Notes under the pieces: model-generated
What the model was told of the DNA's origin: nothing
What the model saw: the letters and a program-made list of their open reading frames with translations, nothing else
Databases searched by the model: none
Shown: piece after piece, positions 19,791 to 32,019 of the stretch
How the letters are laid out: each line of letters opens with the position of its first letter
How positions within the stretch are numbered: position 1 is the first letter of the stretch
Translations under genes and position numbers: made by a program
DNA from: Mesostigma viride
Lineage: Eukaryota; Streptophyta; Mesostigmatophyceae; Mesostigmatales; Mesostigmataceae
NCBI GenBank assembly: GCA_009746045.1
Contig: RPFO01000864.1
Location: 1 to 64,000, forward strand
Reading direction: 5' to 3'
Length of the DNA stretch: 64,000 nucleotides

Positions 19791-19947
19791 TTAATGCCTC
19801 GCCATTGGCATCGCCTGACCCTAAACGCAGCCGCCCAGCCGACAAAACAGGAGGGTTTTCACGCCCCACAGAACCGCGCTTTCGGCCCCAAGAGTGGTTG
19901 CGCTGGATTAGGACAAATTGCGGAAGGCATCAGAAGTGTCCTAAATG

Positions 19948-21563
19948 AAAAGTTGGCAAACATGGTTTTTTTATGCCAGGAGCATTTCAGAATATGTTTT
20001 AACAAGTTTTGTCAAGAAATTTTAATCAGCGCTTGTGTTTCAAGGAAAGTATTCCATGCTGTAATGCATATTTGCTATACACACTGTCTCCGACATGGCA
20101 TCATGATTGAAGATGCTGAGATCCTATGATTATAATACATATAATGCATTCATAATTCATTGTCTGGCTGAAATAAACATCTTTCATGCATGTATCAATA
20201 TCAATTCAGTGGAGAGACCATGCTGAGTCCGGCAAAGTTTGCACGCGGGATTATGCCATGTATTAGGATCACAGGTGCCGCCAGGTCTGCTAGCTAACGC
20301 ACAGGGTCGCGGCTTCGCGGCTTTGCGGAGTATGTTATATACCAACAATGCATGTGTTGGATCAAGCTCCCATGCGTCTCGACTGATCACAACAAACTGA
20401 ACCAAAGATGGATGCTACTTGGGAGCAACCGCAGTGGGCACCAATTGAATCAAGGAGCGGCAACGAGCATCATCGCCCCGCCTAATGGCGACGGCAGCAG
20501 CTAGCTAGCTACGCGGTTTATAAAAACGCAATAGTGCCAGAAGCAAACAACGGTTCAGTGCATGAATCACGAGTGTGTCCGCAATAGCACCGGTAGCAAG
20601 GATGATGTAAGACCGTGGCACTCGGGCAGTTACGGCACGCGGCAAGAGCAAATTGGCGCATAGTGGTTTAACGCATGTTCAATGGCCATTGCAAGTGCGC
20701 GAGGGTTGCAGCAACTATAGCACATTGCTTGCAGTGATGACAACGAGTCATAACATCATTGGTGACCCAGCCATTATAACTTCATTGTAGTTGTCAAAGC
20801 ATCAAATCAGTTGACTGATCAAATTTGGGAGATCCAAGTGCTAGCCATGCAGGGGAGCCAGCCATACAGGCCTGGAAATGCAACCCTGGCCCGGGCATCT
20901 GATCTAACCCAGTGGCTTCGAAGAGACATTGCCACTCCCTGTGGAATACTACGTCCCGACACCGCTTCAGTCACGCATGTCAGTAAAACCGGTTCGTCCC
21001 CTGCCTGGCACACAAGGCCGAGGCAGGTGGGAGGGAAGTAACGGTGAAACATAATAATGGTTTGGCATATATGCCACAAAATATGTCGGAGCCCAGCCCC
21101 CCGCAGGCCCCACCAGCCATGATGTGCAAGAATAAAAAACAGCGACACGTGAAGATGCAGCTAATAATGCTTGCAGCACCAGAGACGTATTCCACGTGCA
21201 ACCCCCCTCCTCAGCACTGGCCCCATCCATGATCCCTGGAATCGCAATGGGCAACCACGGAGCATAAGTGGCAGTAGCAAACACGGTAGCGTGAATGGCA
21301 CGAAGGGAATGAGTTCAGGACAGTGGTACAACCGCAACAGCATATAACAGCCGCAACAGCAGGATAAAGACAAGAACAACACCCATTGTCAATTGTATAT
21401 GGTAATATACAAGATATGTTGCCAGTGAATCCAATACGTGTCAGATCTATGCAGAAAGCCAGCCGGAGAAATGTCCATGGCACACATCACATATGAAGAA
21501 AGCAAAATTGCACGGCGACAAAAAAAAAAACTACTACCACGTGCTGATTGAAGACCAAGACGA
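19948..21563. other. Left non-coding part of the 11.84-kb transposon
   Basis: A/T-rich near the end, then mixed sequence up to the 3' end of the DUF7869-like gene. No gene, RNA or repeat is recognised. Confidence 0.4.
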
Positions 21564-24500
21564 TCACGCCTCCAATGCCTCCGCTGGTGCCTCGCCACCA
21601 CTGTCGCTATCCGACAAGACCTGAGCCTTGTTTGCCCGCGTGCGGCGCAAGCCACGCGGCATTTCTTCTTCGATTTCCTCTGCGCCGTTGGCGCATGCTC
21701 GCGAGCGGTCCTCCTCCTCCTCCTCCCTCTCCTCCTCCGGTGCGCCGCGGGCGCACGCGCGCGAGCGGTTCTTAGCCCTGCCAGCCGGCGCGCCGCGGGT
21801 GCGTGCGCGTGAGCGGTCCTTCTCCTCCTCCTCGTCCTCCTCCTCCCCCTGTGCGCCGCGGGCGCGCGCGCGCGAACGGTTCTTAGCCCTGCCAGCCGGC
21901 GCGCCGCGTGCGCGTGAGCGGTCCTTCTCCTCCTCCTCCTCCTCCTCCTGTGCGCCGCGGGCGCGCGCGCGCGAACAGTTCTTAGCCCTGCCAGCCGGCG
22001 CGCCGCGGGTGCGTGCGCGTGAGCGGTCCTTCTCCTCCTCCTCGTCCTTGTCCTCCTCCTCCTCCTGTGCGCCGCGGGTGCGCGCGCGCGAACGGTTCTT
22101 AGCCCTGTCAGCCGGCGCGCCGCGGGTGCATGTGCGTGAGCGGTCCTTCTCCTCCTCCTCCTCATCATCATCATCATCATCATCCTTATCCTCGTCCTCA
22201 TCGTCATCCTCCCCCTCCTCTCCTCCTCCTCCTCCTCCTCCTCCTCCTCCTCCTCCTCCTCACCATCATCATCATCATCATCATCATCATCATCATCATC
22301 ATCATCATCATCATCATCATCATCATCATCATCATCATCATCATCATCATCATCATCATCATCATCATCATCATCATCATCATCATCATCATCATCATCA
22401 TCATCATCCTCGTCCTCGTCAACCCCACCCGCCTCCTCCGCAGCAGCAGCCTGCGCGCCGCGGGCGCGCGCGCGCGAACGGTTGGTAGGCTTGGCAGCCG
22501 GCGCGCCGGCGGCGTGTGCGCGTAGGTAGTCTTCAGCCCTGGCGATCTCGGATGCCTGAAGTTCAGGGACTTTAACACCTGGGCATGCACAGATCACTCC
22601 TCCTAGCTCAGGGAGTGCCACGGTGCTCACGGCCTCTTCCTCCCAATGCGCACCCCAGAATAGGCCCACCATGTCATGCTGGGTATTGACGACCGCGACG
22701 CGGCCATGGAACCTCTCCTTCTGGTTCTTCACCAGGTTGCCATGCTCGTCTCGCACGTGCTTGATTGCCCACTGGCACACGACTTGCCCCACCAGGCAGC
22801 GCCCGCCGCTCTTCACCGCCTTCAAAATGTCCTCCCAGCGTGTTCCAGTCAGGCGCCTCATACCCGCTGTGGTGGAGACCGCTTGCCAGTCGATAGCAGG
22901 GCGACTTGCGTCACATGGCACCAGCTTGAGCGCGTTCCAACTGTCCTTGGTGAGCTTCTTCTTAGCATCCAAGGACACTGAGCGGACGGGAAGGGACTTC
23001 CGCTTGCTGGGTGGCGCCCAATGGGTGAGGACAAGGGCCGATGCCGGGATGGTCACCACGTGGCGGTCCACGTTGGCAGATGGTGGATGCGGCCATACAG
23101 CCACGTCAGGTATCCATGGGTGCCACGAGTCGCGCAAGTGCTTGGCGCGGTACACGTACACCTCAAGATGAGGCTCAGCGCCCTCCTCGCTGCCCTGATG
23201 CACCTCCTTCACCTCCCCGTACAGTACAGGGGTCCATGGCAGTTCAGAGTTGCAGAGCATGTCGGCATTGGGATGCTTGTATATAACAGGCGAGCCAGCC
23301 TGCACGCCCTTGAGGCGCTCCTCGAATGCCACCTTGGCCCCAAACGCGCGGTCTTCCTCCACCCACTCCGCACGCGTGCGACCATCGTGGCAGACAGGGT
23401 CTACCAACGGCGCTGCCCGGAGCGCCGCCTCGTCAATGAGGGCTGTTGTGATGTCCGCTTGGGTCACAGCCGGTTGAGCCGCAGCCGCGGCAGCCTCACG
23501 ATCACGCATTGCTGCGATTTCTGCACGCGTTGGCCATGGCAAAGGCTGCAACTTCTTGGGCATCTTGTCCGGGAACTGTTCAGCCTCCTTCAAAAACTTG
23601 ACGGTGGGCTGGATGTCCGTGGCATTGAAGAAGGACTGCCAGCTGCTGGGCAGGGATGCCACCGCGTTCTGGATCTTGACGAGCTCCCTGTCAAAAAAGC
23701 GCATGTCGAGTGGCGCCGTCTTGGGAGTGTCTTCCAAATTAGCGACCAGGTCCGGATCCACCACGCGGACCCCGAACAGAGGCTTCCCCGCGTCGTCGTG
23801 CTTGTAGGGGTGCATGCGTGCCCTGCCGCTCCGCGGCGCGTCTTCATCGCGCACCCCAGCGGGCTGCCATGGAGTTCGCTTTGACTCGGTGAAGCGGTAC
23901 GCCATCCACACCTCGTCATTTCCCACCACCTTGAAGAACACGACATGGTGCGGCTTCATAGATTGCCCTACTTTCTCAGACTCTTCCTTCCCCACCGCGG
24001 CGCACCAGTCGCGTGACCTGCACCATTTCTCGAACTTGGAGGCTTTCAGCCACACGAGGAACGCTTGGACATCGTATACCTCACCCAGCCACTGCACATC
24101 CACGCCCTCTGGCACCGTGGCGTTGCTGATGCCGTGGAACGCGTCTCGAATTGCTTGCTCCCAGCTCTCCATCGTGGGGAATATGTTGGACTTCTTTGCT
24201 CTCGCGCCGACGCCGTGGTCCATGTACCCGACCAGCACCCCGAACTTTTGGTCACAGTCTGCATGCGTGTGCCCTCGCCGCATGCGGTGCATCTCCACCA
24301 CGTCAAAGAGCCCCACATGGACGAGCCACCACGCCCAGAGAAGGACTGTGTAGTTGCGGTTTTCAGAACCGCCGTCCATTTGCAGGACTAGGCAGCGTGG
24401 CATGCTTCTATTGCCGAGCCGCCTCCACGGGGCATCACGTATCATGCATAGTAACACGTGCATCAGCATCGTGACAGTGACGCTACCTGAGAGGCCCTCA

Positions 24501-31006: not shown

Positions 31007-31701
31007 CCGTTTTCATGTGAAGCAACCGTTTCTTGATATGGCATTCCATTGACACTATATCTAGGCTATGTGTTGCACGGATGCAACATGCTATTAATTA
31101 TCTGGGCGTCCCGGTCATGGTAGGCTAGAGTATAATTTGTTCAAGAGGAACTCGGCGCAAAAGCCGCGGAGCTGTCTAGTCCAGGATATTGGACTGATTG
31201 ATAATAAGGGCGTTATTAGCCATGCACGCCCAACAATGTCTCTTTGGACATTTTAAAATATTATACATGCACCTTGGCCATTATAATTGGCGGCATGTGT
31301 TAGCACCAATAGCTCTGACAGTACACCCAAGTGCATGCATGCTACATCACTACCTCAAAATTCATTGTTGGTATTGAAATGTTTCCATGCCCGGGGAGGA
31401 CTTCATGCATTATGTGAGAAGATTGTATGAAATTACTGCATGGTACACTTCCCTGGCAAATACAATCACGTTCCGCGCATTAAAGTCATCGTGTCCACGC
31501 TCATGCATTATATGGAAGTAAGCATGACATCATGAAGGGCACCGTCACGAGCATCACCCGGTAAATGTCCTGCAGGGTGGTACCAAATAGGTTGAAAACA
31601 GTTGAATACGTAGGGAATCAATGTCAGCCACATATTGGCCCGTAAAAGGGACCCAAATCAACTTATTATCTTGAGTCGGCATCAAAAGTGTCCTAAATTT
31701 C
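31007..31701. other. Right non-coding part of the 11.84-kb transposon
   Basis: A/T-rich mixed sequence. GGCATCAAAAGTGTCCTAAAT at 31679-31699 directly repeats the motif just inside the left end. No gene seen. Confidence 0.45.
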
Positions 31702-32019
31702 GCAATTTGTCCTAATCCAGCGCAACAACTCCAACCTTTCAAGGTCGACGATCACGACTGGACCAACATGTCCCCGGCAACTGCCCTGCATTGCCTCTTC
31801 TACGGGGACTACGCCTCGCTTTACGACCTGTGCCTCCATCTCTACGACATCAATCGCCTCCTCTGGTGGTATAACACCGATGTTCTGCTCGGGTGCACCC
31901 GCCCCCAACTCCAGCACACCATCCTCAACTCCCTTCTCATGCGCTCTGATGGCGAGATCCGGGCTCCATCCATCTCCGCCCCCACACTCCGTTCCATCCT
32001 TACCGAAGCCTTTCAGCAG

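Follow-up and report, generated by a model that had tools for sequence, protein, structure and literature searches.

Structure of the element in the window

The DNA analysed here, called the window, is a 64,000-nt stretch of Mesostigma viride contig RPFO01000864.1, and coordinates without a prefix are positions in it. It holds a DNA transposon with two genes, one of which encodes a DUF7869 protein. The whole copy occupies 19892..31731 (11,840 bp) and is flanked by the 3-bp target-site duplication CAA, at 19889..19891 on the left and 31732..31734 on the right. The terminal inverted repeats (TIRs) lie at 19892..19925 on the plus strand (GAGTG...) and 31698..31731 on the minus strand (GAGTT...); these arms of 34 nt are 94% complementary, with one mismatch within 31 bp. 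A 20-base core of the TIR was found twice in the window, both times at an element end, with 0 occurrences expected by chance. The arms, together with a core confined to both ends, therefore set the end of the element at 31731. An earlier account made from the letters of the DNA (the sequence-only reading) had given 31-bp TIRs and the CAA duplication, which were recovered here, and an extent of 19892..31732, of which the left end stood while the right end was moved in by one base. TTAGGAC/GTCCTAA motifs are present near both ends.

The empty site was analysed with a related open reading frame (ORF) at 57409..58434 on the plus strand, outside the element, which the sequence-only reading had taken as an ORF1 retroelement copy. 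The flanks joined with one CAA gave an open frame (...EPRF-7 aa-DDHDW...) equal in length to this ORF between EPRF and DDHDW, in agreement with the empty site proposed earlier. Frame and length carry more weight here, because DNA identity along the full alignment is only 67%, with gaps. The ORF had no match in a Pfam search.

The two divergent genes expected from the sequence-only reading were both located, in head-to-head order. Gene 1, at 21389..25786 on the minus strand, has an open frame of 1,484 residues; its first ATG at 25786 aligns with the start of a second DUF7869 family of the same genome, described below as family A, and its residues are numbered from a TTG at 25843. The DUF7869 core noticed earlier corresponds to a match to Pfam PF25273 at 24056..24481 on the minus strand (E 3.9e-14; 53.1 bits against a curated cut-off of 26 bits), which includes residues D490 and D529/D531. 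The low-complexity C-terminal part of gene 1 differs among copies.

Gene 2 lies on the plus strand in two pieces, 26983..27029 and 28801..31006, its 3' end being provisional since the Pro/Gln-rich part is open in several frames. It is split after 15 codons by a nested insertion of 1,771 bp (27030..28800) flanked by a GTAG duplication at 27026-27029 and 28801-28804. This insertion has the ends TGTCC...TTAACA, with GTCCTTA/TTAGGAC palindromes near them. The site is uninterrupted in all seven other copies of the element that were compared in full (50/50 bases), and the usual element is thus about 10.1 kb long; the window copy measures about 10.07 kb once the insertion and the duplicated GTAG are subtracted. 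The length of 11.84 kb given earlier holds for this copy but not as the normal size.

Termini, duplications and empty sites across the genome

The terminus pattern GTTGCGCTGGATTAGGACAAATT was scanned across the 440-Mb genome with up to 3 mismatches, and the reversed pattern served as control. This search for inverted pairs, which the sequence-only reading had proposed, gave 71 termini (35 forward and 36 reverse), compared to 0 and 0 for the control. The termini were combined into 30 inverted pairs, with 11 left single. An exact 3-bp duplication flanks 26 of the 30 pairs, while mispaired flanks agreed in 16 of 870 control comparisons. The 26 duplications are varied in sequence, and CAA as a fixed target was accordingly rejected.

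Empty sites were searched against the genome with joined flanks of 120 + 120 bases from which one duplication copy had been removed. Fifteen of the 26 duplicated pairs were covered in full, and L029 almost in full, by three queries, which left out L014-L017, L033/L034, L045-L048, the inner L049 pair, L050/L051 and L053/L054. The best approximately 40 candidates per query were taken; repeats crowd these places, and a missing row is therefore uninformative. Uninterrupted sites of equal length were obtained for four further insertions: L011 (CAA; 40/40 rows at 98-99% identity), L023 (ATT; one partial row and 16 rows over the full length, of which the top five are 100% identical over 240/240), L041 (ATA; 39 rows at 98-99%) and L043 (CCA; one row, 99%, 240/240). 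A fifth uninterrupted site, for L027 (TCG), gave 24 rows at 98% that are 4-5 nt shorter than the query, the place of the difference not being located. That the element is a DNA transposon having TIRs and 3-bp duplications is well shown here, and the inverted ends common to dispersed copies, the duplication of fixed length and the uninterrupted sites are those of the cut-and-paste type; a retroelement or an assembly artefact was ruled out by the TIRs, the 3-bp duplications and the empty sites at many places. The flanks of L029 and L055, and likewise those of L063 and L064, are identical on two contigs, so a few sites may represent uncollapsed haplotypes.

The pairs fall into two terminal types. 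The window type (GAGTG/GAGTT) accounts for 13 of the 30 pairs, and eight copies, the window copy and seven of 9.9-10.2 kb, were compared in full. The seven are 96-99.7% identical to the window copy in aligned stretches longer than 1 kb. The ends of the other 17 pairs are mostly GAGGT, and among the alignments listed the sequence shared with the window type is limited to about 70-95 bp at the left end and 93-123 bp at the right end. Six of the 17 measure about 2.6 kb and two measure 4.2 kb; the 4.2-kb elements code for a gene-2 homologue and not for DUF7869. Among the DUF7869 matches listed in the genome (best 150 of 275 candidates), none lies inside any of the 17, and these elements look non-autonomous.

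Two other enzymes found inside copies of this second terminal type were rejected as the element's own. The piggyBac-type transposase (PF13843) of a 7.4-kb copy, L017 on C2, is nested, because its 3.3-kb stretch is absent from short copies that match both sides; at its right junction that stretch lacks a clean TTAA. In L034 the reverse transcriptase is also nested, as its 1.3-kb insertion is lacking in the 4.2-kb element and is flanked by an 11-bp repeat; in the 10.9-kb copy on C1602, oriented as the window, this insertion spans 113-1414. Further nested insertions in L017, L033 and L034, all of this type, include one TTAA-flanked stretch and another that is bordered by an approximately 11-bp repeat.

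The DUF7869 protein as candidate transposase

Proteins resembling DUF7869 occur commonly in several groups of eukaryotes. In the genome analysed here at least 150 DUF7869 matches were found, many of equal score and dispersed. Of those listed, thirteen belong to the family of the window element (family B), and 12 of these are inside a TIR pair; for the thirteenth (C1635) one terminus was found. The gene is intact in the window copy, and its first 1,120 codons (3,360 bp) are identical in five of the eight full copies, the window included. In the other three it is at least 99.8% identical, one having a 1-base gap and one having two. Because near-identical copies of gene 1 occupy different sites, the movement was very recent.

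Family A comprises 80 of the matches listed, 30 of them assigned by sequence (L065-L094, about 93-99.5% identical to L065) and 50 by score and range. One DUF7869 and gene 2 pair of this family, at C1406:129616-134125, is on the same contig as the window and outside it. The core of family A is 52% identical to gene 1, and the nonsynonymous and synonymous distances between the families (dN 0.44; dS 2.4, saturated) indicate that the core is constrained. The acidic residues D395/D398 (in IDKIDHAK, upstream of the PF25273 match), D490 (in ..DGGSEN) and D529/D531 (in GHTHADCDQ) are conserved in both families with spacings of 94/91 and 38/40, and they look like a DDD site. The order of a hydrophobic stretch ending in D, DGGSEN, a helix-like stretch and GHTHxDxDQ would resemble an RNase-H core. 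A DDD transposase of the RNase-H-like kind is the most likely reading of the DUF7869 protein.

The protein was taken as the transposase because of its conserved acidic core, its presence in recently moved full copies and its dispersed family of at least 150 matches. The probability that the element is a cut-and-paste transposon mobilised by its DUF7869 protein is put at roughly three in four (about 0.77). The sequence-only reading had made the same link as a conjecture; it now appears stronger, the protein being the sole recognisable catalytic candidate in complete, near-identical copies and its divergent pairing with a PHD-like gene recurring in family A, and it is still a matter of interpretation.

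Several observations weigh against this assignment. The link between DUF7869 and 3-bp duplications comes from one family and from shorter elements with similar ends. Four of the 30 pairs are without the 3-bp duplication (L018, L031/L032, L037/L038 and the outer pair of L049), and one of the 13 window-type pairs (C335) is without a listed DUF7869 match. No credible hit came from PDB sequences searched by profile, the best E being 0.51. Among the 57 DUF7869 matches outside families A and B, a gene-2 relative is listed within 8 kb at one and at none of the other 56.

Other searches with the protein gave little. Searches of PHROGs and NCBIfam returned nothing credible; an RNase E match in NCBIfam was discounted as it falls in an acidic low-complexity stretch. 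No relatives were confirmed in collections of viral contigs and genome contigs, where the scans need a short peptide pattern first and distant relatives may therefore be missed. A single viral contig from the motif scan was taken as chance, the frame with the match being short and facing a long one. DUF7869 and PF25273 were unmentioned in the literature searched, the scope of which left out most subscription papers and bioRxiv.

Gene 2 as possible partner or rival transposase

The gene 2 product begins with a Cys-rich part and is acidic and Pro/Gln-rich. The Cys/His spacing of its N-terminus reads as the PHD finger type, with Pfam matches that are below threshold (E 0.0021 and 0.017). Relatives were searched in the genome with the protein of the 4.2-kb element, and the best 104 of 2,709 candidates were used. 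In family A such a relative is listed within 8 kb of DUF7869 at 74 of the 80 matches and is divergent from it in all 74. In family B it is listed within 8 kb at 5 of the 13 matches, and tblastn finds gene 2 in all eight full copies.

Gene 2 or its remnants are present in elements of both terminal types, including those that are without DUF7869. This distribution would suit a transposase in gene 2 itself, or in an unseen factor, with DUF7869 as a passenger. However, no catalytic domain was recognised in gene 2 in the domain searches made with it. Between two DUF7869-less elements, one member of the pair having stops, gene 2 gave dN 0.157 and dS 0.171, a near-neutral drift as may be expected of a passenger copy, judged from this one pair; the DUF7869 core, in contrast, is constrained between families A and B. 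When the two terminal types are compared, gene 2 is 31% identical over 442 aligned codons. A transposase other than the DUF7869 protein is thus considered improbable, and gene 2 is better read as its partner.

Comparison with known transposons

The sequence-only reading had stated that the element does not fit CACTA, TTAA or TA elements, and the ends of GAG..CTC, the lack of TTAA and duplications that are not TA are in line with this. One comparison is with the CACTA/EnSpm group; En/Spm elements have two genes. The present element could be a deviant member of the CMCT clade in which DUF7869 is a very diverged CACTA transposase; the 3-bp duplications, the large two-gene structure and a C(2)C pair that the two DUF7869 families have in common (CATC/CADC) would agree with this. 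According to PMC12730594, CMCT duplications are 2-5 bp, the ends are mostly CA..TG (CAC..GTG in EnSpm), and the transposases have both C(2)C and H(3-4)H placed after the second D and before the last E. The duplication length of the present element falls in that range, but its termini begin with GAG in 69 of 71 cases and GAC in 2 of 71, not with CA. The C(2)C pair is upstream of the proposed first D. With D490 taken as the second D, no C(2)C or H(3-4)H was found within the following 130 residues, and in families A and B the stretch from D490 to D531 is also free of C(2)C, H(3-4)H and C/DxxH. No Pfam CACTA transposase matched at E <=1, a search in which the HMMER filters drop most matches above 0.1. 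Ends and motif order thus set the element apart from the CMCT clade, and a membership there is unlikely, though somewhat less so than the passenger role of DUF7869 considered above.

The last two acids are spaced by 38/40, near the distance in the named DD34 to DD41 families (PMC7386202), and 3-bp duplications are also described for Zator (PMC10045372). A diverged Zator or ITm-type element would account for both features, but the duplications are not TA. Apart from DUF7869, gene 1 had one Pfam match at E <=1, in an acidic low-complexity stretch, and no transposase match at E <=5; weak matches are mostly filtered in both searches. The ISAzo13/TP36-like transposase match that would mark Zator is likewise lacking in Pfam. 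This origin is therefore very unlikely, the least probable of those weighed here. PIF/Harbinger (PHIS) elements share the 3-bp duplication and the two genes. Their target patterns are given as TNA or ANT in PMC12477816, whereas the targets here are varied, TNA fitting 2 and ANT 3 of the 26. No Harbinger DDE domain was matched in Pfam at E <=1, with weak matches mostly filtered, and Myb/SANT was not recognised in gene 2; targets and domain thus speak against this assignment. piggyBac was set aside since the duplications are not TTAA.

RAG1L-RAG2L, of the Transib type, also has a transposase gene head-to-head with a PHD-bearing partner, as described in PMC4411706. It differs in its 5-bp duplication, its Kelch-PHD partner and its RAG1/Transib transposase, and the resemblance is suggested as a parallel only, without kinship. 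No element of the present kind was found in the listed titles and abstract openings of the literature on transposon superfamilies, Lanisha, 3-bp elements, algal transposons and PHD partners.

The element may belong to a new eukaryotic cut-and-paste superfamily, characterised by GAG..CTC ends, by 3-bp duplications without target preference, and by a DDD transposase of the DUF7869 type whose gene stands head-to-head with that of a PHD-like partner. This proposal was judged by Pfam, ends, targets and the descriptions in papers. Because Repbase was outside the comparison, it is plausible and not proven, and it is held tentatively, at close to even odds.

Other features in the window

A piggyBac-type transposase in two overlapping frames is present at 35070-37173 on the minus strand (PF13843, E 9.8e-17 and 1.2e-07). 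Probable retroelement remains lie at 47730-49973 and 37639-38814 on the minus strand, where a frame matches reverse transcriptase (PF00078) and an endonuclease is matched weakly. At 51979-55036 several overlapping frames of 670-990 residues are open on both strands, as in a stop-free long tandem repeat.

Proposed mechanism and significance

In the proposed mechanism, the DUF7869 protein would bind to the terminal repeats that the copies have in common (GAG..GTTGCGCTGGATTAGGACAAATTGCG), excise the element and insert it at breaks staggered by 3 bp, with no sequence preference seen here. Repair of the gaps would then give the 3-bp duplication. The gene 2 product, PHD-finger-like and of low complexity, would act as an accessory protein, expected to bind the ends or chromatin. 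The 2.6- and 4.2-kb elements, having similar ends and no DUF7869, would probably be mobilised in trans.

PF25273 is named as a family of unknown function, and its member here is inside a defined mobile element. If the assignment is true, a domain without a function would become a transposase family, which is testable by its acidic residues and the ends that it recognises. The element looks freshly active, as its identical copies indicate, and is therefore open to a transposition assay. A transposase beside a PHD-like protein would, if true, offer a parallel to RAG1/RAG2 for studying the role of the partner. Under the superfamily reading, DUF7869 genes at large would encode transposases or descend from genes that did. 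If the assignment holds, annotations that list them as host genes would need revision.

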